NCBI GenBank assembly: GCA_938027595.1
Contig: CALJAK010000002.1
Span: 62,001-126,000 of the forward strand
DNA length: 64,000 nt
Direction: 5' to 3'
Source: an uncultured Thermoproteales archaeon
GTDB lineage: Archaea; Thermoproteota; Thermoprotei; Thermoproteales; Thermoproteaceae
Shown: in pieces, positions 36,801-49,092 of the stretch
Layout: each line of letters begins with the position of its first letter
Numbering within the stretch: position 1 is the first letter of the stretch
Program-made: the position numbers and the translations under genes
The notes under the pieces: generated by a model
What the model saw: only the letters and a program-made list of their open reading frames with translations
Databases searched by the model: none
Told to the model about the DNA's origin: nothing

Positions 36801-37955
36801 ATGCGACGGGCGTCTGTGCCCGTACGTGGATACAGAAACTTAGATCTTTACGGATCTCTACAGCCCCCCATCTACCAGACTGCAGTTTTCAGAATGGTGG
36901 GGGAGGCTACCAAATCCGACAGGGGGTTCGACCTCAAGTACAGCCGGGAGGAAAACCCCACGTTGAGACCTCTCGAGGAAGTATTGGCTAAGCTGGAGAA
37001 CGGAGAAGACGCCTTCGCATTCAACAGCGGCATGGCTGCGCTGTCTACAGTGTTTCTTTCTCTTTTAGATGCAAATAGTGTGTTGTTAGTTCCAATGGAG
37101 TCTTATGGAGCTACTCTGAGATTACTTTCTTCGTTGGAGAAATTTGGCATTAGATTTAACAAAGCGTATCCAGATACAGAAGTTTTCATAGAAGAGATGA
37201 AATCTACGAAACCCTCTATAGTGTTTATAGAGACAATTACAAACCCCACGCTTAAAGTTTTCGACGTGCCGGAAGTGATTAAGACAGCTAAAGACCTCGG
37301 CGCAGTTACGGTGGTGGACAACACTTTCGCTACGCCTATGTTAATCACGCCGATTACACACGGCGCTGAGGTGGTGGTACACTCTACTTCTAAGTATCTA
37401 GCTGGACACAACGACGTGATTGGGGGTGCGGCTGTGGTGTCTACAAAAGAATTAAGTGACGTAATGTGGGTTTGGAGAGCCATGTTGGGTACGATAATGC
37501 AACCCATGGAGGCTTATCTAACGCTTAGGGGAGTGAAGACGTTAGACGTGAGGTTTGAACGCCAATGTAAAAACGCCAGGGCAATAGCGGAATTCCTCAC
37601 AGAGCATAGCAAAGTATCAGACGTGATTTACCCAGGTCTCCCCACACATCCACACTATGGCATAGCTAAAAAGCTCTTCGGCGATAAATTCGGCGCCGTG
37701 GTTTCCTTCAGAATAAGGGGTGGGCGGAGTGCAGCTGTGAAATTCTTCGAGAGCCTCAAGTTAATCACGCCGAGTCCCAGCCTCGGCGGTGTGGAGAGCA
37801 TAGCTACATACCCAATCACAAGCGCGGCGGCTCCGATAGCCGAGGAGGATAGGAAGATCTTAGGCATTGACGAGGATTTGATAAGGCTATCAGTAGGCAT
37901 AGAAGACGTCCAGGACTTGATGGAGGACTTGGACCAGGCGTTAGCTAATGTATAA
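36801..37955 (+). CDS. Cystathionine gamma-synthase/lyase family PLP enzyme
   Basis: 384 residues with the Cys/Met metabolism PLP fold: LDLYGSLQPPIYQTAVF, the active-site tyrosine region KYSREENPTLRPLEE, VDNTFATPML, and the Schiff-base lysine in HSTSKYLAGHNDVIGG. It could be cystathionine gamma-synthase, gamma-lyase or O-acetylhomoserine sulfhydrylase; these are not separable by inspection. A good TATA box precedes it. The 3' end overlaps the convergent pilus cluster by 15 bp. Confidence 0.88.
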   Translation: MRRASVPVRGYRNLDLYGSLQPPIYQTAVFRMVGEATKSDRGFDLKYSREENPTLRPLEEVLAKLENGEDAFAFNSGMAALSTVFLSLLDANSVLLVPMESYGATLRLLSSLEKFGIRFNKAYPDTEVFIEEMKSTKPSIVFIETITNPTLKVFDVPEVIKTAKDLGAVTVVDNTFATPMLITPITHGAEVVVHSTSKYLAGHNDVIGGAAVVSTKELSDVMWVWRAMLGTIMQPMEAYLTLRGVKTLDVRFERQCKNARAIAEFLTEHSKVSDVIYPGLPTHPHYGIAKKLFGDKFGAVVSFRIRGGRSAAVKFFESLKLITPSPSLGGVESIATYPITSAAAPIAEEDRKILGIDEDLIRLSVGIEDVQDLMEDLDQALANV

Positions 37956-38237
37956 CAACCCACTGCTCGTAGTGCCTATCTTTAACACGCCTCTAGTCTT
38001 CTCTATGTGTAACACTCTATCTCTCTCAATCTTCAGACCGCAAGTTAGATACAGATAGCCACCTTCTTCGAAAACGCGGAATTTTCCATATGCAATAATT
38101 TCGGAGCCGGGATTTTGGAGAACTAACTTGGCAGCTACGCACGGCGCTGGGGTTGAGTAATAATCAAACAAAGCCATGTACATCGCCAGTGTAGCGGTGG
38201 TCAAAAAGAGGAGACTCACTAGGTAGTAATCCGTCAC
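37941..38237 (-). CDS. Small membrane-anchored protein of pilus cluster
   Basis: 98 residues from GTG 38237, which overlaps the upstream stop (GTGA). One N-terminal hydrophobic segment (residues 5-22), then an extracytoplasmic beta-rich domain with two cysteines (APCVAAKL, YLTCGL) that could form a disulfide. The layout resembles minor pilin-like subunits. Last gene of the minus-strand cluster. Family not recognised. Confidence 0.6.
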   Translation of the reverse strand: MTDYYLVSLLFLTTATLAMYMALFDYYSTPAPCVAAKLVLQNPGSEIIAYGKFRVFEEGGYLYLTCGLKIERDRVLHIEKTRGVLKIGTTSSGLLYIS

Positions 38238-38479
38238 GGCTTAAACCTACAGCTCAAATTCAAGACTCTATAGGCAATCCCGGGGGGAGCGTTTATCTCC
38301 TCTCCACACGCCACGTGGTTGTATGTGAAGTTTCCCACCTCAACTAACCTATAGAACTCCGGCCAGTACATGAAGAGAGAGGACAAGTCTAATTTGTTTA
38401 TTTCCATGGGTTTGATGGTTAGCATGGCCGCCACTACGAGGCCGAAAATTATTGGTATGTAAATTACGTCAATCTGCAT
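38234..38479 (-). CDS. Small membrane-anchored protein of pilus cluster
   Basis: About 81 residues from ATG 38479; a longer open frame upstream would overlap the preceding gene by 85 bp and has no hydrophobic start. Residues 4-22 (DVIYIPIIFGLVVAAMLTI) are a membrane anchor. The external part has two cysteines (HVACGEE and NLSCRFKP). It is probably co-translated with the next gene. Function unknown. Confidence 0.55.
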   Translation of the reverse strand: MQIDVIYIPIIFGLVVAAMLTIKPMEINKLDLSSLFMYWPEFYRLVEVGNFTYNHVACGEEINAPPGIAYRVLNLSCRFKP

Positions 38480-38508
38480 GGCGATAGATGCGTCTGGGGG
38501 GAAAAACT

Positions 38509-38949
38509 TTAACACTTTACAATTACGAGCCTCACTACAAATTGATACTCTAGCTCTACGGCTTCTGGAAAGAAATCCGTAGACTGCGCACACGTGGCGT
38601 AGTAGTGAATTATCTTCTCTCCAATAGCTGGAAAGAGAAAGGAGCAGTTAGGCAAATGTATACTATTGTTACTCAAGGTATACACACCCATGTAGACGTC
38701 TGGAGGTGGACACCTACCCACCGCCAGGAGGTACAGTTGTAAAGATTCGCCGCCGACGTTGTACCAAATGACGTACGTCTTGACTTCTACTGGAGTGTTT
38801 ACTTTCGCCGGTTTTTCGGCTTTTATAGATTCGGCAATGTATCTAACGGACCAATCCGCTTTATACATAGACGACAGAACAGCAGCAGCTACCACTGCGG
38901 CTACCGCCATGGCGCCCGTCGTGATCAACAGAACTTTAATGGAGAGCAT
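38509..38949 (-). CDS. Pilin-like or pseudopilin-like protein
   Basis: 146 residues. The N-terminal SIKVLLITTGAMAVAAVVAA is a hydrophobic helix like those of type IV pilin-like subunits, although no clear K/R-G cleavage site is seen. The extracytoplasmic domain is beta-rich with four or five cysteines (GRCPPP, LPNCSFL, TCAQS, VIVKC), suggesting disulfides. It overlaps the large exported protein gene by 14 bp. Confidence 0.55.
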   Translation of the reverse strand: MLSIKVLLITTGAMAVAAVVAAAVLSSMYKADWSVRYIAESIKAEKPAKVNTPVEVKTYVIWYNVGGESLQLYLLAVGRCPPPDVYMGVYTLSNNSIHLPNCSFLFPAIGEKIIHYYATCAQSTDFFPEAVELEYQFVVRLVIVKC

Positions 38950-41785
38950 ACCGCGACTTATCTCCCAGGGGGTACCCCACTTGGTCTGCCCAAGTTTTGT
39001 ACAAAAGCCTAGCTTTAGGTCTCCATATGTCCACAGCCAACCCCGGCTTTGCTAACGTCTCTTGTCTCACTATCGGCAAAACCAAGAGGGGGTCCCATGG
39101 GAAGATTCTACTGGCATTGACGTAAACCACTGAGGCCGCCGCTTCGGCTACTTTAACCCAACTACCGTTTCTGTTTAAGTAGAAAGCGTAGCCAACCACG
39201 GGCCCCTCTGCGGTTATTTTCACTATCCCTCCACTCAACAACTCATAACGAGGCTCTGAAACTCTATCAACAAACTCCACTCTCCCCACCATTTCGAACC
39301 ACTGCGTAAACTCGCCCCTAGCCACAGTCTGAAGTCCGCCGTTGTGTATACAGCGGAAGGGATATTGTCTACCGCCCCCACTGAAGACGTTAATTCCGTG
39401 GAAGTAGGGAACTCCCTCCAAGTAGAGGTAGATAGACATGTCCAACTGGGGGTTTTTGAAAACTTGCGGCACTACAGTTGTGGTTTTGAGTAAGTAAGAC
39501 ACTTGGTTAGTGACAAAAAAGATATAGAAATACTTAGAGCCAGTCTCCACCTCTTCTAACACAATTTGGAGGGGGCCAGTGTAATTCACTGGAGTTACAT
39601 ATATGGGTCTCTTCCCAATTGCAATCGGTTGGCACGGCTCTACTGGCTTGTAGTCTAAATGCCAACCCGGACCTACGTACAGAGTGTCCATCGGTCTCCA
39701 CCGCCTAGTCAATTGTACAAGAGATATGTTACGCCCCCATTTGAAAGTCGAGTCCACCACGTAGCCAGCCTCCACCCACATTCTCAGAGTGACATTTTTC
39801 TCGCTGCCTAAATACGTCAATGAGAAACTATACCCAACCCCCGGCAGAGCTAACGCAACTCCAGGTGGCCACAGCGCAGCGTCCACTTCTAGACACATGA
39901 TGTTTGTGCAAGCGGTGGTGGGAATTATCGACACGAGCCACCGCGGCGAGGAGTTTGTGGGTAGTGTGGCTAGCCCCAGGGGTAGCGCATCGCTCCAGCC
40001 AGCCGGCAGCTCAACGCCGCCGTCTACTTTCTCCCATTGGTAATTGTAGAAATTGCCATATGTGGGGTCTGCAGTCTGATGTAGAAGCGGCTCCACTCCC
40101 AACGTGGTGTTTCTATACTCCGCCGCTCTGTACACTTCACTCAATAGAGAGACTTGGTGCGGTGGACGCGAAACGCACTCGCTGAGTATGTCAAAATCTC
40201 CACTCTGGGGGTTAAAGGCGTAAGTCTTAACTCTATAGACGTGGTGATAGTACAAATGGGGGTCTCCCCACACTAGAGACATGAGGTCTCTAAATCCCCC
40301 CTCTCTACAGACTTGCCCCCCCACTAGCCAATTCACTAACGTGAGTTTAGACAACGGCCACTGTGTGCCCCCCGGGGGTCCCACTTTTGCGTATCCCACC
40401 CAACCGCCGGCATATTTTGTGTACACATGTTGAGAATAGAGACAGTCAAACGTCTGACGCGGCCACTGGCGGCACGGATTCGGCGGTGAATACCACGCGG
40501 TGGATATTTGGCTGAACTCTCCGTCTAGAGCCACGTAGAGAGACGCCTCGCGTGCCTGCGGTTTGTAGTATAACTTTCCACTTCTGGCTACGGCCTCGTA
40601 ATTCACAAAAATGCCAAAGTTGTCCACTACTCTCAAATACGTGGCGTGTGAATCCACCCACAGATCTCTCAATTTCCAAAATATCGACACCCCAAGCTTG
40701 GCTATGGAGCCTAGAGGCATTTTCACCTCTACCGTGTCGTTGTACAACAGAGACTTGCCGCCTAGAGTCACAGCCACGTGAGGGGTGAGATACTCCCCGG
40801 TCTTTATTGCTATAGATCTCAACGTTCCCCTCCACCTCCAGCTTGTGCCAACCCACGTGGAGTTACCCACCGCATCGATTACGAAACACTGAGGGGGAGC
40901 GCAAGAGGTGTTTAGAGTCACGGTGGATATGTAAAGCGGCAGAGGCCGCGGGGGGCTTAACTTCACGGAGCCCCATTTGGAAGGCACCGCAGTCACCGTG
41001 AGAGTAATTCTTCTCAAAAATGGCGTTTGCCACACGTCACTTATGTACTGCCCACGGCTTAAGTCAGTGGAGAGAATTGCACTGTAGATACCCAAGTCGT
41101 TGTATGCACCGTGGTCTGTGTAATACAGCGGATTTGGAATCGTCACACGCACGAACCCGGCGTCTACAGACTCGCCGGGCCGGCGGCCGTTTATCTCTAG
41201 AGCTGTCCATACCGTCTGCCCCCGCCCCCACTTTACTACATTTTCGTCGACGAATTTCTTTCTACAACTCGGCCAACTGTCGTCGTCTGGAAGCTCTACA
41301 CAGACGCTGTGTAAATACCTCTGTATAGGTATGGAGACTTTGAGAAATTGCCTAGCGCTATATCTCGCCGAAGTGCTCGACACTGTGAACTCTATAAATT
41401 TCGACATTTTTTCAGGTTTGTGCGTCAACTTGTAGTAAGTATACACCACGCCGCCGTGTTTACACACATACTCCTCCACACGCCACGACTCACTTGAGTC
41501 GAAATATTCAATTTCTATCGCGTACTTCAACTCTCTATCCCACTTCACAAAAACTGGCGTAGAGTACGCCAAGGCTTTTTGAGTTATGTAAAAATCCACA
41601 CCCCACACGACGTTTTTCTGTCCACTGGCGAGAGTTTGTGGATTGCCGAACACAAGTCCCCAAGTCTCAAAACTGAACTCAATCCACACCTCGGCGGCGG
41701 TGGATATTTGCAACACGTCGACTTTTTCACAAGTTACCGCCGCTGTGAGTTGTGTTAACAACAATATAATCAACACTACCCACAT
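38936..41785 (-). CDS. Large exported protein (949 residues) of pilus cluster
   Basis: ATG 41785 was chosen because it gives a standard signal peptide (MWVVLIILLLTQLTAAVTC), while the ATG at 41824 adds a hydrophilic lead. ggggga lies about 5 bp upstream as a possible ribosome-binding site. The mature protein is beta-rich with many Trp, Tyr and Pro residues and about 15 cysteines. It has no clear C-terminal membrane anchor. It could be an adhesin, tip protein or secreted component of the apparatus. No homologous family recognised. Confidence 0.7.
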   Translation of the reverse strand: MWVVLIILLLTQLTAAVTCEKVDVLQISTAAEVWIEFSFETWGLVFGNPQTLASGQKNVVWGVDFYITQKALAYSTPVFVKWDRELKYAIEIEYFDSSESWRVEEYVCKHGGVVYTYYKLTHKPEKMSKFIEFTVSSTSARYSARQFLKVSIPIQRYLHSVCVELPDDDSWPSCRKKFVDENVVKWGRGQTVWTALEINGRRPGESVDAGFVRVTIPNPLYYTDHGAYNDLGIYSAILSTDLSRGQYISDVWQTPFLRRITLTVTAVPSKWGSVKLSPPRPLPLYISTVTLNTSCAPPQCFVIDAVGNSTWVGTSWRWRGTLRSIAIKTGEYLTPHVAVTLGGKSLLYNDTVEVKMPLGSIAKLGVSIFWKLRDLWVDSHATYLRVVDNFGIFVNYEAVARSGKLYYKPQAREASLYVALDGEFSQISTAWYSPPNPCRQWPRQTFDCLYSQHVYTKYAGGWVGYAKVGPPGGTQWPLSKLTLVNWLVGGQVCREGGFRDLMSLVWGDPHLYYHHVYRVKTYAFNPQSGDFDILSECVSRPPHQVSLLSEVYRAAEYRNTTLGVEPLLHQTADPTYGNFYNYQWEKVDGGVELPAGWSDALPLGLATLPTNSSPRWLVSIIPTTACTNIMCLEVDAALWPPGVALALPGVGYSFSLTYLGSEKNVTLRMWVEAGYVVDSTFKWGRNISLVQLTRRWRPMDTLYVGPGWHLDYKPVEPCQPIAIGKRPIYVTPVNYTGPLQIVLEEVETGSKYFYIFFVTNQVSYLLKTTTVVPQVFKNPQLDMSIYLYLEGVPYFHGINVFSGGGRQYPFRCIHNGGLQTVARGEFTQWFEMVGRVEFVDRVSEPRYELLSGGIVKITAEGPVVGYAFYLNRNGSWVKVAEAAASVVYVNASRIFPWDPLLVLPIVRQETLAKPGLAVDIWRPKARLLYKTWADQVGYPLGDKSRYALH

Positions 41786-41814
41786 GTTCCCCCAGTTGTG
41801 GGGTGGGAAAAAAG

Positions 41815-42312
41815 TTAGGGACAAGCCAGCGGCACTTTTAACGGATAATCCACTATGTATATAACTGTACCCAACGGGGCGAGGACGTACAGAGAAGTGG
41901 TTTTTGCATCGTCGTCATACACCATGACGTATTCCACTCTCTTTAACACCCCGTCAGTGGTTACATATGCGTAAGTCTCTACCCAAGGCATAATGTGGAG
42001 AGAGTGGCGTAGAGTTATTTCGTATAGAACCGACGGCTCGCCGCTGGGAGCCACGGCGTAGGTACATCGATTGACGTAAATATGTAAATCGTAAGTCAAG
42101 AACCTCCCCTCTCTATGCAGTACGTAACCCACGGGGGCGCCGTTTTTGTTTGTTAAAGCAAACTTGTCTAGAGTGTTGTTTAACGTCGATTTGATAATAT
42201 ACAACTCGCTAGCCAAATTTACAGAAGTGAAATGCGGCGTGTGTAGAGCCGCGTAGAGAGTTACAAACGCGAGGAGAGCGAGAGCTATAACTCCATACGC
42301 CATGGACCACAT
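41815..42312 (-). CDS. Membrane-anchored pilin-like protein
   Basis: 165 residues. Residues 3-23 form one hydrophobic segment (SMAYGVIALALLAFVTLYAA), followed by an external domain of alternating beta strands with two cysteines (NRCTYAV and PLACP). The gene follows the preceding one after 2 bp. Its place and architecture match minor pilins of the cluster; no family recognised. Confidence 0.55.
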   Translation of the reverse strand: MWSMAYGVIALALLAFVTLYAALHTPHFTSVNLASELYIIKSTLNNTLDKFALTNKNGAPVGYVLHREGRFLTYDLHIYVNRCTYAVAPSGEPSVLYEITLRHSLHIMPWVETYAYVTTDGVLKRVEYVMVYDDDAKTTSLYVLAPLGTVIYIVDYPLKVPLACP

Positions 42313-42314
42313 GG

Positions 42315-42641
42315 CTACGGTCTATCGCCGCCGCACGTGACGTACGCCATTCCGCCGATAACGTAGACATACATAACGTCACACACTACTTCGTCTCCCA
42401 CACTCAGCGGCTCTCCGTGGAGAAACGCCCAGCCGTATTTAGCCACCTCCCGCAAGCCGTGGTAAAGAACTGCGCCATCTTCTCTCTGCACTAACCTACC
42501 CCAATTGACTTTGAAGAGGCAGTCGGAACACTGCGGCGGGGCGAAGCCCTCGTGCGCTGGAAATAACGAAGTTATAAACACCGCCGTGAACGTCAATATT
42601 CCAACAGCGATTAGAACCTCCTCGAAGCTCTTCATGGACAT
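42315..42641 (-). CDS. Small membrane-anchored protein of pilus cluster
   Basis: 108 residues with an N-terminal anchor preceded by SMKSFEEV, so a Glu lies just before the hydrophobic helix as in pilin precursors (EEVLIAVGILTFTAVFITS). The outer domain has paired cysteines (PQCSDCLF, VVCDV, VTCGG). It overlaps the upstream gene by 10 bp. Confidence 0.55.
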   Translation of the reverse strand: MSMKSFEEVLIAVGILTFTAVFITSLFPAHEGFAPPQCSDCLFKVNWGRLVQREDGAVLYHGLREVAKYGWAFLHGEPLSVGDEVVCDVMYVYVIGGMAYVTCGGDRP

Positions 42642-43060
42642 CTATACTGCATCAATAACCACATTCCTCTAGAGACGAGACCCAGGGGGACGCAAGTGGG
42701 TTTCACTTCTGCGAACTTCGGCGGCGGACACCACAAGCCAGTGTAGGGATTACTCCCAATCTTCGCCCTACCCACACACCGATATCCCCCAGGATACAAC
42801 TCAAACACAGCTACCAACTCGCCGAAGAGCCCCAGTTGTCTAAAGAGAGCATCTGCGTGACTCATGTGCTCCACTACGTAAAGCCTGCCGCTGTTGTTGT
42901 AGACGTACAACACTCTAACTGCTAGATCGTCACTGGGAGCCACAGGTGTCTCTATAGTTTTCCAGTAGATAAAGGGTTGCATCACAACACTTGACGCAAT
43001 TAGAAGCATCGCAATACCCACGGTGAATACGACTACAGACACTAAATGCTCCATACCCAC
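42632..43060 (-). CDS. Small membrane-anchored protein of pilus cluster
   Basis: 142 residues. The start MGMEHLVSVVVFTVGIAML places an acidic residue (Glu4) before a hydrophobic helix, similar to processed pilins. The external part contains cysteines in YRCVGR, GLWCPPP, KPTCVPL and YRCP. It overlaps the next gene by 10 bp. 44 bp separate it from the main pilin gene. Confidence 0.55.
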   Translation of the reverse strand: MGMEHLVSVVVFTVGIAMLLIASSVVMQPFIYWKTIETPVAPSDDLAVRVLYVYNNSGRLYVVEHMSHADALFRQLGLFGELVAVFELYPGGYRCVGRAKIGSNPYTGLWCPPPKFAEVKPTCVPLGLVSRGMWLLMQYRCP

Positions 43061-43104
43061 ATTGCGTTGTTAATGTACATAGGGAGAGTTTTTGGGGAAA
43101 AAAT

Positions 43105-43548
43105 TTAGGAAATTCCAACGGTGACTACGCCCTTTGCTATCTGCACCGCTTTGCCACTACTGGCGTCACGCGCGTAAATCACGTACGTGTACTGACGGCC
43201 TTGCTCTAGTCTGTAGTTGAATCTACATGTGGCAGATTGCCCGGCAATCAGCGACAATCGGTCGCTGGAGACGCTCTGTGCGCCGGCAGTTATGCAGACG
43301 CCAGACATCGGAGTGCTCATGTTCTCTCCACTCGCGGCATACGCCAACAACACGCCGGACAATCTGCCATTTAGCACTTCCACCGTGACGTCGAAACCTG
43401 CTCTATCGACTGTGACAATCGCGTTCGCTCTCAATGCTTCAGCCGCCGATTTGCCCATGCCTTGGAAAGTTATCACCGCCATGACGCCCACTATCACAAA
43501 CGCCGCCGCTATCAACAACGCCTCCACGCTGATCATACCCCGAGTCAT
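43105..43548 (-). CDS. Type IV pilin / archaellin-like major subunit
   Basis: 147 residues with a class III signal peptide: MTRG then MISVEALLIAAAFVIVGV. Cleavage after Gly4 by a prepilin peptidase would leave Glu at position 5 of the mature helix, the hallmark of type IV pilins. The globular domain is Ser/Thr-rich and beta-stranded with two cysteines. The gene sits directly after the TadC/ArlJ-like platform gene. It is the best candidate for the filament subunit. Confidence 0.8.
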   Translation of the reverse strand: MTRGMISVEALLIAAAFVIVGVMAVITFQGMGKSAAEALRANAIVTVDRAGFDVTVEVLNGRLSGVLLAYAASGENMSTPMSGVCITAGAQSVSSDRLSLIAGQSATCRFNYRLEQGRQYTYVIYARDASSGKAVQIAKGVVTVGIS

Positions 43549-43554
43549 GTGACT

Positions 43555-44751
43555 CTATGTCTGTGGGGGGATAAAGTTTAGAACTAACAGTGCAACAACA
43601 CCCCCCAAGGTGAGAGATTTGTGCAACCCCAAGGGAGCCATGAACGTCGAGATGTATAACCCAGTCACTAGAGCCATCGTTGTGGACACAACCCACTTCA
43701 CCTCGCTCTCTGGCGGCGGTGTGAAAAACGGCATGTAGCCACTCACCTCTGCTGCGTGCAACACCTCCACTGCCGTGGCGATGGAATACGCAACTACCAA
43801 CACAGCTATGGTGAAGAGAGATATGTAGACCGCCGCTAGTTTAGACATTTTTTTCAATACTTGAGTCTCCAGATCTGTCAACGTCTGGACGTACTCCACT
43901 GCTTTCAAGGCGGTGGCGCCGCCCGCTTCAGTTATGGCTCGGTACATGCTTCTAGCTAGCGTGAAGTATCTAGACGGCATGAAGTAACCGTATGCGATTT
44001 TCCCCGCCACTTTGAACTTGGCTGAGAGTTGCCCAATCAAGACGTCTGGCGGCGCCCCCTCTCTCAACATAGCCGCGGCGGCTCTCAACAGAGGCGGCAC
44101 TTCTTCTCTAATCTTGAACCACCACAAGCGTCCTTTGGCGAATAGCCAGAGGTAAAGCACGCCACCCAGCGCAAGAAAGAACAGAGGTGGCGAAATGAGT
44201 GAAAACAAGACAGCCACGGGGAGACCCAACAAGAGCCCACGTCCATATGCCCGCAGTGGGTTTATGTCCCACGGCGTGATCCACATGCCGTACAACCCAA
44301 TCGCCGTCACTGGCGTCAAGACAGCGGCTAACAGCCAGAGGTAGTCCACTGTTAAAATGCCTATGGCCCACAAGAAGAGAAAAAATAAGGGCAGCACGAA
44401 GAGAGCACCCATCGACGAGATTATAGATTCATACGTCTTGATTCGCGCTTCAGTCTTGGCGATGGCTATGGCTCTGGCAGAGTCTAGAAATGAACTCACC
44501 AACACGTACTTATCCACCCCGGCTTCTTCTTGAGCCAGAGCCAGTCCAAATAGTCTAGCCGCTTCGCTCTTCTCCTCTAGAAAATACTTCGAGGGGTTTG
44601 GCGTGAGCGAAGCCATGAACAACCTCCGCGCTTCTCGCTCATTTAACTCAGCGGCGTTTAGAGAACAATACTTCAACGCCTCGCTCCCAGACATCGCACC
44701 GAGATAAGTGGCGAAGATAGGTGCCGTGGCTATGTAGAAGTCCTCACTCAT
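43555..44751 (-). CDS. Type II/IV secretion platform protein (TadC/ArlJ-like)
   Basis: 398 residues with membrane segments around 110-155, 185-215 and 295-390. They frame a cytoplasmic domain with REGAPPDVLIGQLSAKFKVAGKI and an ARSMYRAITEAGGATALKAVEYV helix typical of T2SF/GspF-domain proteins. It forms the inner-membrane base on which the ATPase acts. Start ATG overlaps the stop of the upstream gene by 4 bp. Confidence 0.8.
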   Translation of the reverse strand: MSEDFYIATAPIFATYLGAMSGSEALKYCSLNAAELNEREARRLFMASLTPNPSKYFLEEKSEAARLFGLALAQEEAGVDKYVLVSSFLDSARAIAIAKTEARIKTYESIISSMGALFVLPLFFLFLWAIGILTVDYLWLLAAVLTPVTAIGLYGMWITPWDINPLRAYGRGLLLGLPVAVLFSLISPPLFFLALGGVLYLWLFAKGRLWWFKIREEVPPLLRAAAAMLREGAPPDVLIGQLSAKFKVAGKIAYGYFMPSRYFTLARSMYRAITEAGGATALKAVEYVQTLTDLETQVLKKMSKLAAVYISLFTIAVLVVAYSIATAVEVLHAAEVSGYMPFFTPPPESEVKWVVSTTMALVTGLYISTFMAPLGLHKSLTLGGVVALLVLNFIPPQT

Positions 44752-45089
44752 ACCAAGTTAGACAACACCTCCCTGAGGTGTGTTAACTTTCCAGCTCTCT
44801 CCACGGCTTTAGGCAATTCTCTCACGGCGTCTACGGCGTGTACGCCAGAAGACACACGCGCCGCTATGTAGTCCACCACCATGCCCATGTATTTCTCTAG
44901 ATCTATAACTCTGGCGGCGGTTAGCCAATCCTCCTCCTCAAGCCAGATGCCCCTCTCGGCTAGTTTACACACTGCTTTGAAAAATTTCTTTTCCCCTACT
45001 CTGAGTTCTCTAGCCAACTCGCAAATCCATCTAGCTGTGGAGATTGTGAAGCCTCTCTTCACCGCAAGCTTCTCTATACTACACATCAC
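44748..45089 (-). CDS. Small helical protein of pilus cluster
   Basis: 113 residues, mostly helical and charged, with ARWICELARELRVGEKKFFKA and no membrane span. It lies between the secretion ATPase and the platform protein, with 4-bp overlaps on both sides. It may be a cytoplasmic assembly factor. No family recognised. Confidence 0.5.
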   Translation of the reverse strand: MMCSIEKLAVKRGFTISTARWICELARELRVGEKKFFKAVCKLAERGIWLEEEDWLTAARVIDLEKYMGMVVDYIAARVSSGVHAVDAVRELPKAVERAGKLTHLREVLSNLV

Positions 45090-45304
45090 CTCCAGTTGAG
45101 TAGTAAAATCGCCAACTTGATGTAGGGGTCTCTTCTGTTCTCAAGCAAACTCAGCAGCGTCTCTCTCGGGATTGTCTTGAGAATTTCTTGAGCTAACTCT
45201 GTGGGCATTTCCACAAGCGCTTTGACTAGACACTCCTGCCACGACTCGCCTGCCGGCTGCCCATCGTTCGAAGTCAACACCTCCTCCAACCTCCCTCTAA
45301 ACAT
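45086..45304 (-). CDS. Small helical protein of pilus cluster
   Basis: 72 residues, helical, with SWQECLVKALVEMPTELAQ and the C-terminal SLLENRRDPYIKLAILLLNW, which resembles one HEAT-type repeat. It is co-translated with the next gene (ATGA-type overlap) and starts 29 bp after the ATPase gene. Unknown role. Confidence 0.5.
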   Translation of the reverse strand: MFRGRLEEVLTSNDGQPAGESWQECLVKALVEMPTELAQEILKTIPRETLLSLLENRRDPYIKLAILLLNWR

Positions 45305-45333
45305 ACACAGTCGTGAGTTTCTGCGAAAAAACT

Positions 45334-46860
45334 TTAGAAATATCCAAACTTAGCCGCCTCTTGACGCACAGCGTTTTTGAAATCTAACCTACCCCACACT
45401 TTCTCCACGATTAACCTCCTAGCCGCCGTGGGTTCCTCCAACTCGCTTGCGTCTATCAACGCTTCAACTCTCAACTTCAACTCGCTTTTGAGATCTACTC
45501 CATACATTTCCTCTACATATCTAGCCACTCTTGGCGTGGCTTCAGCCACATCCACAACCTCCACTCTCTGCTCTCTCACTGACAACATCTTGGCTTCTCT
45601 GACGAACCTAACGCCACCCAGTGCGGACAGCTGTATCACAAACACGCCGTCTAACCCCTCCAGCGGTGCGTTTGCTTCTACTATCCTCACCACGGCGTCT
45701 CTCACCGAATCTGCGTGTAGAGTGGCGAGAGCTCCATGGCCAGTCAGTCTGTAATTTATCAAAGTCTTGAGCTCGGCGGGTGTCCTCGCTTCTGCCAGCG
45801 TAACGATAGTGTGAATTGTGCCGTAGCGAAGCGCTTGGTCTAGCGCATGCCACAGTTTATCCTCGCTGGGTACAGATATGTGGAGAAGTTGTCCCTCCAG
45901 GGGGGCCCACACTTCCCTAGCCCCCCGCTCTATTATCACAATTTGCACCCACGGCGGAGTTAAGTACAATAGTTGATTCAGTTGGGTAGTCTTGCCAGAG
46001 CCCATTCCACCGGAGAACAACACTCCACCCCTCATCTCTAACGTGAGAGAAGCTAAAGCCAAGATTTCCAAACCCCCCACTGCATATTTCGCTGCCTCCG
46101 TTGACGTGAACTCAAGCGGCTTCGTCACGTACGGCGTCAGCAACGACTTGGAGGGCTTGGGCACGCTGGAGAGTTTTCTAATGTTCACGTTGTACTCCAA
46201 CAGATCGGCTGCAATTCTCGCCTTGTGAAGTTGGTCTTCTCTAGTCTGCATTGGTCTATCCATAGTGAGAGAGGGGAGTAACTTCTTCACAATCACATAC
46301 ATCAACGGCTCCGGTATCACGATGTTGGTAGGCAGCCTCAATTCATTGCGCACGGCAACTACTCTCCTATATCTACCTAACTCCACCACTTGAAACCTCA
46401 AGTAGTCTAATTGCTCTCTCAACGTCTTAGGCACGTACGTGTATTTAGAGACGGAGGCAATGGGTTGTGGTATCACAATCTCAGTGAGAAATGGATCTCT
46501 CATAAGCGCCTCCAAAGCTCCATAACCTGCGTAATCCCGAGCCCCACTCCACCTATCTAATAAATAGTGCACAATTTCTCTGTGCTCTCTGTACAGGCTC
46601 CATATATACTTGTCTCTAAGCCCCTCCGCGACGTTCTTCACAATTTTTGGATATTCCCCCTCGTCGGGAGGCACTACCCCCCTGAACATCACTAACAACA
46701 ACGCCGTCTGCAAATCCTCAGGGAGTGGGGGGTCAATCACTACGTACATCAAGTCTTCGGTAATGCAGACGTCTGTCCTCAACCCCCTGTCTACTATGAC
46801 TCCCTCTCTCTTGAGCACACAGCGGGATTTCAACAAATTGTCTGCCTGTGCGTAAATCAC
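45334..46860 (-). CDS. Type IV pilus / archaellum-type secretion ATPase (TadA/ArlI/VirB11 family)
   Basis: 508 residues. The N-terminal half contains YGALEALMRDPFLTEIVIP, the typical lead-in of archaeal secretion ATPases. The catalytic half has Walker A FSGGMGSGKTTQLN, the Asp/Glu box VIIERGAREVW, a Walker B-like region near LAEARTPAELKTLINYRLTGHG, and ATLHADSVRDAVVRIVEA (His box). A hexameric motor of this kind drives filament assembly with the platform protein. GTG start overlaps the ParA-like gene. Confidence 0.9.
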   Translation of the reverse strand: MIYAQADNLLKSRCVLKREGVIVDRGLRTDVCITEDLMYVVIDPPLPEDLQTALLLVMFRGVVPPDEGEYPKIVKNVAEGLRDKYIWSLYREHREIVHYLLDRWSGARDYAGYGALEALMRDPFLTEIVIPQPIASVSKYTYVPKTLREQLDYLRFQVVELGRYRRVVAVRNELRLPTNIVIPEPLMYVIVKKLLPSLTMDRPMQTREDQLHKARIAADLLEYNVNIRKLSSVPKPSKSLLTPYVTKPLEFTSTEAAKYAVGGLEILALASLTLEMRGGVLFSGGMGSGKTTQLNQLLYLTPPWVQIVIIERGAREVWAPLEGQLLHISVPSEDKLWHALDQALRYGTIHTIVTLAEARTPAELKTLINYRLTGHGALATLHADSVRDAVVRIVEANAPLEGLDGVFVIQLSALGGVRFVREAKMLSVREQRVEVVDVAEATPRVARYVEEMYGVDLKSELKLRVEALIDASELEEPTAARRLIVEKVWGRLDFKNAVRQEAAKFGYF

Positions 46861-47558
46861 GTCTTTATACGCAGGAGCAATTGCTCTATAGATCTCTTGT
46901 TGTCTCTATCGCGCAAGACAGAACTCGCCACAGACTCTCCATAGTATTCATAAATCTTAACCCGCTTCAACACCACTGGGGCTATCTTCTTCGCCATACC
47001 CAAATCGCTCTTGTCAACCATGTTGATCACCACCATCGACGAATACGCCATATAACGCCTATACTGCTCGGACTTTATGTCAGAAATGCGAGATATCAAC
47101 CGCCCGTCTGACAAAAAGATGTTAAACACCCCCATGCTCTGTAGTTTAGACAGAATCTCAAGCCTCAAGGCGGCTGTGGTGTCAATCAAAACCGTATCCA
47201 CCGGCAGTCTAGAGAGTTGCACAAATTTAGGTATGAAGCTAACCCACTCCACTAGAGCCTGGTGGAAATCTCTCGACGCATCGCTCCCCATCTTTTGGTA
47301 AAGCTCATACGCCTCGTATCCAGGTATTAAGTAAAGCGATGGATTTATCCTATGTACATAAGGCTTTTCTCTATTCAAAAAAGGCGCCAACCACCCCATC
47401 CTCCTGGGGGCTCTGAACAACTGCGACAAATCAGCCTTCTCCCAATCCATATCAATCATTAGCGTATAACCCTTAGCCACGGCGATTACGCTAACCAGCG
47501 TAGTCTTCCCCACGCCGCCATCTAGAGAAGACACCAACACCACTCTGACAGGCCTCAT
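46857..47558 (-). CDS. ParA/MinD-family ATPase
   Basis: 233 residues. The deviant Walker A motif SLDGGVGKTT (residues 11-20) and MIDMDWEKADLSQLF identify the ParA/MinD superfamily, which dimerises on ATP and positions cargo. VLIDTTAALRLEIL is the Walker B region. Association with pilus genes recalls FlhG/TadZ-like localisation factors in bacterial pilus and flagellar systems; a similar spatial role here is an inference. Overlaps the ATPase gene start by 4 bp. Confidence 0.82.
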   Translation of the reverse strand: MRPVRVVLVSSLDGGVGKTTLVSVIAVAKGYTLMIDMDWEKADLSQLFRAPRRMGWLAPFLNREKPYVHRINPSLYLIPGYEAYELYQKMGSDASRDFHQALVEWVSFIPKFVQLSRLPVDTVLIDTTAALRLEILSKLQSMGVFNIFLSDGRLISRISDIKSEQYRRYMAYSSMVVINMVDKSDLGMAKKIAPVVLKRVKIYEYYGESVASSVLRDRDNKRSIEQLLLRIKT

Positions 47559-47854
47559 GCCAACGTCGCTAGTTTTCTATAGATGTACGCAACTGCCGCA
47601 TGTTTCAAACTAACCGCGTCCGCCACTGGTCCCACTTCTCTCTTTATTTTATTCAACAAGTGAGACGCAGCTTTCGAATCCGAGAGGTCCTCCAGCCTCA
47701 ATAGAGAAGGCCTCAACCTCACGGCGTTACCTCTGACGTTAGACGTGGCTAACCTAGCGGCTAGACACAAATCTCTGTACTCTCGATAAAAATTCATATA
47801 GCTACATTTCTTTATCAAAATGTGTAAAAGCGTTAATGTGACTTTATCGAACAT
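47555..47854 (-). CDS. Small protein of pilus cluster
   Basis: About 99 residues from ATG 47854; the TTG at 47887 would extend it by 11 residues. Helical and basic, with SYMNFYREYRDLCLAARLA and no membrane span. It overlaps the ParA-like gene by 4 bp and the preceding gene by 11 bp. No family recognised. Confidence 0.5.
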   Translation of the reverse strand: MFDKVTLTLLHILIKKCSYMNFYREYRDLCLAARLATSNVRGNAVRLRPSLLRLEDLSDSKAASHLLNKIKREVGPVADAVSLKHAAVAYIYRKLATLA

Positions 47855-48419
47855 AACACTCCACCAATTTCTCTGGATTCTCCACAACTTGCTTAAGCAA
47901 GTTCAACATGCGGGAGTCACTAGCCACCAGAGCTCTAATGAGATCTTCCAACTCTTTCGAAGTCTCTCTAGCTCTATGCTTGTTTTTGTCTACTTTCTCC
48001 TCCAGCGCTTTAACTACCTCCGTGGGTTCTTCGCATAAATATGGATAGTCCCGGCAGAGGTCTGCAAAGCGTAGCACCTCCGGATTTATCTGGAAGGGGG
48101 GTAACTTTTCCACTTTTAACACAAACTCAATCAACCTTCCTACTGCATCTCTCGCATCTCTTCTCTTATATTTCTTCACAAAAGTGACGACAGGGCAGTT
48201 AATCACCCCAGGCTTCACCCGCCCATGTATGACGTACGTGTCTCCCACCATGGCAGTTATGTACACCACAACGGCGCCTTCTCTACACATTTGAGACACC
48301 TCCTGAGGGTCTGACATATAAACGTCTTTCAATACAAAAACGCCACTCGGCGGATGCCCCCAGTACATGTGCCACCCGTCTCCCAAATGTTGAGATATCT
48401 GCGCCAAGAGTGACTCCAT
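47844..48419 (-). CDS. Hypothetical protein of pilus cluster
   Basis: About 191 residues from ATG 48419 (5 bp after the preceding gene); an ATG at 48452 would create a 29-bp overlap. N-terminal alpha/beta part (GVFVLKDVYMSDPQEVSQM, VVVYITAMVGDTYVIHGRV), then a charged helical C-terminus (VVKALEEKVDKNKHRARETS) likely forming a coiled coil. No membrane span. Unknown function. Confidence 0.5.
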   Translation of the reverse strand: MESLLAQISQHLGDGWHMYWGHPPSGVFVLKDVYMSDPQEVSQMCREGAVVVYITAMVGDTYVIHGRVKPGVINCPVVTFVKKYKRRDARDAVGRLIEFVLKVEKLPPFQINPEVLRFADLCRDYPYLCEEPTEVVKALEEKVDKNKHRARETSKELEDLIRALVASDSRMLNLLKQVVENPEKLVECYVR

Positions 48420-48423
48420 GGCG

Positions 48424-49092
48424 CTATGGCGTGTTGTACAAAACTTCGCCACTCTCTATTTTTGTACAATACGCATTTCTGCACATGTCGCTCCATCTCC
48501 CCACAGTCATGTCCACATGCGGCATTCTCCCAGTGTCTAGCCAGTACAACCACTCAGCTAAGTGCTTGTTCCGTCTATCGCGCCACTTAGACCAAGCCAC
48601 CCATGAGTACCCCCTCTTGTTGGCTAACTCCCGCAGCCACTGTGGAAAGACTTGCCTAAAGACTTCTAACGGCCTCGTCTGCGGCACTTTGTGAATCCAC
48701 TTAAAGAGAGAGGACGCTCTATTTCGCCAGACGTAAGACCTGCCGTCTCTAAGCGAAGTGAGGAGATAACACGGCGATGTTTGGATACGCAAATCTAAAA
48801 CTCCCCACTCTGCAACTGGGGGCCATCTAGTTCTATAAGACGGAGAGACGTAGCCACTCTCGGCAAACAATATCCACTCGTGTCTATACACACCGCCGAT
48901 TTTCATCCCGCGCAGCGCTAGATATGAAACACTCGGGTTCTCAGTCACGAACTTCACCACGTCGTCTAAGTCTCTCGCCACATGTCTAAACCTCTTCACT
49001 AATTCATTCACGAAATCTACGCCAAGTAGTTGCGTCCAATCGTCGGGGACGCTGTGTAGGAATATACAAGGGTCTATCTTGGGTTTCAACAT
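48424..49092 (-). CDS. Hypothetical protein, first gene of pilus cluster
   Basis: 222 residues, cytoplasmic, Trp- and Arg-rich, with RGYSWVAWSKWRDRRNKHL and several scattered cysteines. The TATA-like tttaaaag lies about 22 bp upstream of the ATG, so the 11-kb minus-strand cluster could start here. No family recognised. It is separated from tRNA-Cys by 33 bp. Confidence 0.55.
   Translation of the reverse strand: MLKPKIDPCIFLHSVPDDWTQLLGVDFVNELVKRFRHVARDLDDVVKFVTENPSVSYLALRGMKIGGVYRHEWILFAESGYVSPSYRTRWPPVAEWGVLDLRIQTSPCYLLTSLRDGRSYVWRNRASSLFKWIHKVPQTRPLEVFRQVFPQWLRELANKRGYSWVAWSKWRDRRNKHLAEWLYWLDTGRMPHVDMTVGRWSDMCRNAYCTKIESGEVLYNTP

Follow-up and report, generated by a model that had tools for sequence, protein, structure and literature searches.

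What kind of machine is encoded by an 11-kb block of tightly packed genes in an uncultured Thermoproteales archaeon, and what might it do for the cell? The window analysed here is a stretch of 64,000 nucleotides (contig CALJAK010000002.1, positions 62,001 to 126,000, assembly GCA_938027595.1), and the block (positions 37941-49092 of the window) consists of 16 minus-strand open reading frames (ORFs), mostly overlapping or a few base pairs apart. The original prediction, made from the sequence alone, described a pilus-like operon with a ParA/MinD ATPase. The identity holds and the novelty does not: the window cluster is, with little room for doubt, a type IV pilus belonging to subclade 4G, that is, a known pilus family and not a new system, the MinD/FleN-like ATPase having already been included by Makarova, Koonin and Albers in 2016 (PMC4858521). 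The best explanation of the locus, and a fairly probable one, is a complete 4G archaeal type IV pilus that in relatives is the partner of Ted, the Thermoproteales exchange of DNA system (Beltran et al. 2023, PMC9905601), and here stands alone. The genes are listed below in the order of transcription, with protein lengths in amino acids (aa), orthologue identities in per cent and transmembrane segments as TM; the arCOG numbers were given to single window genes by order and type.

48424..49092, minus strand: g1, 222-aa cytosolic protein without assigned function; identity 55-64% across eight other loci of Pyrobaculum type and 44% with Bin S10
47844..48452, minus strand: g2, 202-aa cytosolic protein without assigned function; 37-49% orthologues
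47555..47887, minus strand: g3, 110-aa cytosolic protein without assigned function; 46-57% orthologues
46857..47558, minus strand: ATPase of the ParA/MinD family, probably arCOG05608; signature Lys replaced by Asp (SLDGGVGKTT); CbiA 2.3e-4, MinD 1g3q 1.8e-5
45334..46860, minus strand: secretion/pilus assembly ATPase, probably arCOG05609, subclade 4G; T2SSE 1.9e-10, 71-74% orthologues in the genus
45086..45304, minus strand: g6, 72-aa small cytosolic protein without assigned function; 39-64% orthologues, paralogues in Ted loci
44748..45089, minus strand: g7, 113-aa cytosolic protein without assigned function, probably arCOG05610 or 07479; 31-71% orthologues, paralogues in Ted loci
43555..44751, minus strand: platform protein resembling TadC (probably arCOG05611); orthologues of 53-60% identity within the genus, no Pfam match
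43105..43548, minus strand: major pilin, probably arCOG05612; class III leader MTRG^MISVE, two Cys invariant in the alignment
42632..43060, minus strand: g10, minor subunit; one TM, 4 conserved Cys, no leader
42315..42641, minus strand: g11, minor subunit; one TM, 4 conserved Cys (CxxC), degenerate leader MSMKS
41815..42312, minus strand: g12, minor subunit; one TM, 2 conserved Cys, leaderless with its first residue at +1
38936..41785, minus strand: 949-aa all-beta protein exported through Sec, a candidate for the tip/adhesin subunit; the alignment shows no C-terminal anchor
38509..38949, minus strand: g14, minor subunit; one TM, 4 conserved Cys, no leader
38234..38479, minus strand: g15, minor subunit; one TM, 2 conserved Cys, start moved from 38593
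37941..38237, minus strand: g16, minor subunit; one TM, 2 conserved Cys, no leader, start overlapping the preceding stop

As judged by BLAST and profile annotation, the order of all 16 genes is kept in eight other Pyrobaculum-type genomes (G008, P. sp. WP30; G010; G004; G002; G009; G006; G003; and copy 1 in G001, the complete genome of P. oguniense TE7), so the ORFs are real genes; the 16 packed minus-strand genes were thus correctly described, and the conservation of gene order proposed as a check is found. In the Thermoproteus-type genomes (genus g3), most of the cluster genes are present, with g14, g15 and g16 relocated. One genome (G016), presumably T. tenax, has a locus of 12 genes matching the operon TTX_0962-0973. 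That T. tenax operon had been flagged in 2011 as a possible type IV pilus. The subclade 4G locus of Pyrobaculum and Thermoproteus, as described in PMC4858521, comprises a diverged ATPase (arCOG05609), TadC (arCOG05611), a PilA-type pilin (arCOG05612), FleN/MinD (arCOG05608) and helical proteins (arCOG05610/07479), together with two large proteins and minor pilins having conserved cysteines. Compared with that text, the window and its relatives have the same content: MinD, ATPase, small helical cytosolic proteins, TadC-like platform and major pilin, along with cysteine-rich minor pilins and a large exported protein. The difference is that the published system has two large proteins whereas the window is without the C-terminally anchored coiled-coil one.

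The motor is identified by a T2SSE (PF00437) match over the cut-off, which bears out the secretion ATPase of the original prediction. Its Walker A region is invariant in the 14 rows of the alignment, and orthologues are found in 9 of the 10 other genomes of the genus, the tenth (G007, 74% complete) giving a weak match only; P. oguniense has two copies. The platform candidate is the 398-aa multi-TM protein adjoining the ATPase, in the position given for arCOG05611 in PMC4858521. As originally noted, no prepilin peptidase is encoded within the cluster; an A24-family candidate (G000:C5:19410-19676, in the window genome; 202 aa, with a GYAD motif) scores E 8.7e-5 and 23.1 bits, below the 26.5 cut-off. 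ATPase and platform are common to all type IV filament machines, and on this account an archaellum, or a Ced/Ted locus proper, might be considered. An archaellum was rejected, however: none of the ten cluster proteins scanned with Pfam has a KaiC/ArlH-type match, and the published tree (PMC4858521) places the 4G and archaellum ATPases in separate clades. Against Ced/Ted proper, TedC was not detected in the window genome (G000, of which ~3% is missing), nor was a TedB at E<=1e-30 or HerA305. Such an assignment is very improbable indeed.

Two side observations concern secretion ATPase genes. In G012 (C1:865436-874533; L025, L026), the 4G ATPase gene appears split in an insertion-like manner, with residues 3-139 and 141-507 encoded ~7.6 kb apart on the same strand. 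In the window genome (G000:C7, L167:6392-7844), a short secretion ATPase lies beside a gene with a TFIIB-like zinc-ribbon start, an arrangement resembling the pilin-less subclade 4D of Makarova et al.

The major pilin has a genuine class III leader, as had been claimed, MTRG^MISVEALLIAAAF, with Glu at +5, and [KR]G precedes the hydrophobic helix in 14 of the 14 loci (TRG^MISVEALL in the window). The small exported subunits were originally counted as five one-TM proteins with paired cysteines, next to six cytoplasmic unknowns. The kind was recognised and the count was not: the one-TM proteins are six (g10-g12 and g14-g16) and the cytosolic proteins without assigned function five (g1-g3, g6 and g7), the 119-aa ORF 38234-38593 being probably a membrane protein that was counted as cytosolic. 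Its start is most likely the internal ATG at 38479 because the relatives start there. Each small exported subunit has an even number of conserved cysteines (two in the pilin; 4, 4, 2, 4, 2 and 2 in g10, g11, g12, g14, g15 and g16, respectively; conservation in >=80% of Pyrobaculum-type loci), and in the same loci MinD, platform, g6 and g7 have none. The cysteine-rich minor subunits had been taken to fit a disulfide-stabilised tip; cysteine-paired exported subunits they are, but the tip is too narrow a reading because the major pilin and all minor subunits carry conserved cysteines. The solved P. arsenaticum pilin Par_PilA (PDB 6W8U) likewise has two cysteines, which form a disulfide (PMC7347861). 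The profile of the window pilin family nevertheless finds nothing below E 0.01 among solved structures, Par_PilA included, and the 4G pilin of the window appears, on this comparison, to be a different pilin.

Judging from the reading frames, the Pyrobaculum-type minor subunits for the most part no longer carry the class III leader, which their Thermoproteus-type orthologues usually retain. In the Pyrobaculum-type g12 and g16, the first residue coincides with the mature N-terminus or adjoins it; as a rule the frame is closed by a stop a few codons before this point and offers no earlier start. The Thermoproteus-type orthologues have MRGQ or MKGQ in g10 and g12 (3/3 each) and MRG or MKG in g16 (2/3). 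The exceptions are g10 of both P. oguniense copies, where RG is kept, and g11 of G004 and G002, where MSMRG is kept; a few starts are ambiguous (e.g. g10 of L014). The available part of PMC4858521 contains no mention of leader loss. As a separate point, g11 has 108 aa in the window and an extra exported domain, up to ~396 aa in total, in several relatives (L013:7360, L015:8478, L018:10594 and similar).

The ensemble of six small subunits, one leadered pilin and one long exported protein might also suggest a type II secretion-like pseudopilus, which would export the 949-aa protein or other cargo and form no long filament. The long protein, correctly described as exported, begins at the ATG at 41785 and has its own Sec-type signal peptide; these archaea lack an outer membrane, and the major pilin has a canonical leader with Glu+5. 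On these grounds a pseudopilus is improbable. The structure model of the 949-aa protein (predicted local distance difference test, pLDDT, 70.6) is mostly beta and has no match in the PDB at E<=1e-3; the model of g1 (pLDDT 55) is too poor to interpret. In other clusters, a coiled-coil protein of 304-385 aa with a signal peptide and a C-terminal TM sits between the pilin and g10. The window has a 44-bp gap at this place and no match elsewhere in its genome, and because the protein is present in nine other clusters, its loss in the window does not undo the orthology.

The ATPase that drew attention to the cluster gives a CbiA/MinD match under Pfam's curated cut-off. Asp13 is invariant in 15 of the 15 orthologues ([LV]DGGVGKTT versus the canonical KGGxGK[ST]), so that the signature Lys of the deviant Walker A motif is replaced; the available part of PMC4858521 does not mention this change. 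The MinD of the loci of G021 and G024 is canonical (KGGTGKST). Bacterial Tad pilus operons unite a secretion ATPase, a TadC-like platform and a ParA/MinD-family protein (TadZ/CpaE), and the window has these three in one operon. Unlike TadZ, however, the 233-aa window protein consists of the ATPase domain only, without the extra N-terminal domain, and its best solved relatives are archaeal MinDs. The suggestion of positional control like that by TadZ or FlhG is thus left unproven. Separately, pieces of a second, apparently decayed MinD-like gene occur in G003 (C1:602449-602702; L076), and in G017 (L072:2632-7506) a Thermoproteus-type second MinD with g7 lies divergently beside a Pyrobaculum-type pilus cluster.

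What points beyond a plain pilus is the linkage of its genes to the Ted genes in relatives. In copy 2 of P. oguniense TE7, a single strand carries MinD-ATPase-...-g16-wH-P167-TedB-...-Rad51-like-TedC-TedA; contig C15 of Thermoproteaceae Bin S10 has, also on one strand, coil-g10-...-g16-g6-P167-TedB. In both, the pilus block runs directly into P167-e137-TedB. The pilus genes of Bin S10 lie on two contigs that break between the pilin and the coil gene, across which adjacency is presumed. In G021 and G024 (family f2), presumably Vulcanisaeta, the order on one strand is TedA-TedC-three pilin-like genes-platform-ATPase-MinD-...-TedB; TedC and TedA of these loci match the Pyrobaculum profiles weakly, and consistently through intermediates. 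In G028, MinD, ATPase, a Rad51-like gene, platform and a SWIM-like protein are interleaved. For two genes in a genome of 2.4 Mb, the chance of lying no more than 5 kb apart is ~0.4% by our own estimate, and chance linkage is unlikely because the arrangement recurs in separate lineages.

Some Ted loci moreover share g1, MinD, g6 and g7 with the pilus operon. The MinD profile finds paralogues elsewhere in G002, G004 and G017, and in G002 and G004 their neighbourhood repeats the order g1, MinD, g6, g7 of the pilus operon; there follow a P-loop ATPase, a HerA/VirB4-like ATPase of the membrane (DUF87, 4.8e-13), another HerA-like ATPase and two further proteins, one of SWIM type and one Rad51-like. 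In addition, g1 paralogues lie upstream of Ted loci in G002, G004, G010 and G018. The gene at L113 matches PDB 8DFT over all 112 chain residues and is TedC. G010 is P. calidifontis, as its TedC equals PDB 8DFT; its homologous locus holds TedC (cleavage site AVA|QA, as published) and TedA, and the HerA/VirB4-like ATPase is therefore taken, by locus and homology, as TedB. The two extra membrane proteins that PMC4858521 reports for the Vulcanisaeta and Caldivirga loci are probably TedC and TedA; a Ted link was not found in the available part of that paper.

The dispersed Ted-type loci of G002 and G004 (L067-L071, L073-L075, L114) are mostly 77-95% alike in DNA and mosaic in content, and a STAND-like ATPase of 1361-1405 aa lies upstream of several. 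Neither clear ends nor attachment sites of these loci were found; their copy number suggests mobility. A new mobile element was considered and rejected, since TedC and TedA of P. calidifontis show that these are Ted-type loci, and so was a viral origin, as relatives of the TedB-type protein or MinD were not found in viral contigs. In the window genome, G000:C8 (L168:2750-3211) matches in part, at 42% identity, a protein of 340 aa encoded in a Ted locus of G002, possibly a remnant of a lost Ted-type element.

Is the linkage, then, a functional one? TedC is present in 5 of the 11 genomes of the genus, and across 81 genomes of the class, TedB-like proteins at E<=1e-30 occur only within the order. 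The original prediction had named assignment to a known Ced/Ted system as counting against it; the window cluster, whose genome has no detectable TedA, TedB or TedC, is no such locus itself, although in relatives its counterparts are joined to Ted loci. Partnership of the pilus family with Ted rates a little below an even chance. Several observations weigh against the best explanation as a whole. Five Pyrobaculum-type pilus genomes, including that of the window, have no detectable TedC, which makes the pilus independent of Ted; most of the resident pilus clusters are not beside Ted; in the ATPase tree, sisterhood of the window-type and Vulcanisaeta-type ATPases is not rejected (approximately unbiased test, p 0.38), nor proven, the monophyly of 4G being possible, and the window-type branch is very long; and no filament of the window pilin has been seen, and its profile misses the solved P. 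arsenaticum pilin.

An ordinary adhesion or biofilm type IV pilus without a functional tie to DNA exchange would account for the pilus without Ted in at least five genomes. The joined loci would then reflect shared regulators (MinD, g1-g3, g6, g7) and recombination of the repeated Ted-type loci with the resident operon. The two P. oguniense ATPase copies are sisters in the tree (97/98), so the pilus-Ted fusion there may be recent and copy 2 could be a recent capture, and the Ted-type MinDs nest, weakly supported, within the Pyrobaculum-type ones. Still, the joined layout recurs in distant lineages (G021 and G024 of another family, Bin S10, P. oguniense), and in G021 and G024 TedC and TedA directly adjoin the pilins; this explanation is rather unlikely. 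A role of the pilus family in Ted-mediated exchange is best supported because the pilus genes are joined to Ted genes in relatives.

A parallel is provided by Ups and Ced of Sulfolobales, where a type IV pilus that aggregates cells is likewise paired with a VirB4-like DNA-transfer system; those, however, are described as separate operons, whereas pilus and Ted are contiguous in some species, with the functional tie proposed here. The Ted paper names type IV pili in its text for Ups only, not in Ted loci (PMC9905601), and a literature search among open-licence papers found no report of a pilus-Ted link. It is proposed, tentatively, that the 4G pilus and Ted are two halves of one Thermoproteales DNA-exchange machine, equivalent to Ups plus Ced and forming a single locus in some species, and that in several Pyrobaculum lineages, including that of the window, the pilus half has become independent and its minor subunits have shed the prepilin leader. 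The ATPase and platform would polymerise the major pilin after removal of its leader by a prepilin peptidase encoded elsewhere. The six one-TM subunits would serve as minor pilins or initiator/anchor subunits and, being almost leaderless, would not need cleavage; the secreted beta protein would be the likely distal adhesin, and the MinD-like protein and the five small cytosolic proteins may regulate or position assembly. In the family, the pilus would bring about the cell contact for Ted-mediated DNA exchange, as Ups does for Ced. As no Ted was detected in the window genome, the window pilus presumably acts alone, most likely in adhesion or aggregation.

Relative to the published 4G, the Ted linkage, the leader loss, the change of the signature Lys and the missing coiled-coil anchored protein in the window are new. 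If several minor subunits have indeed lost their leaders and the major pilin has kept its own, this would be an unusual bypass of the peptidase by pilins. Thermoproteales have been reported to lack Ups and Ced, and in 2023 Ted filled the Ced gap without a named partner pilus. The joined loci offer a candidate for that partner and suggest what this pilus family, so far known as sequences only, might do; a role in cell-to-cell DNA exchange becomes testable.

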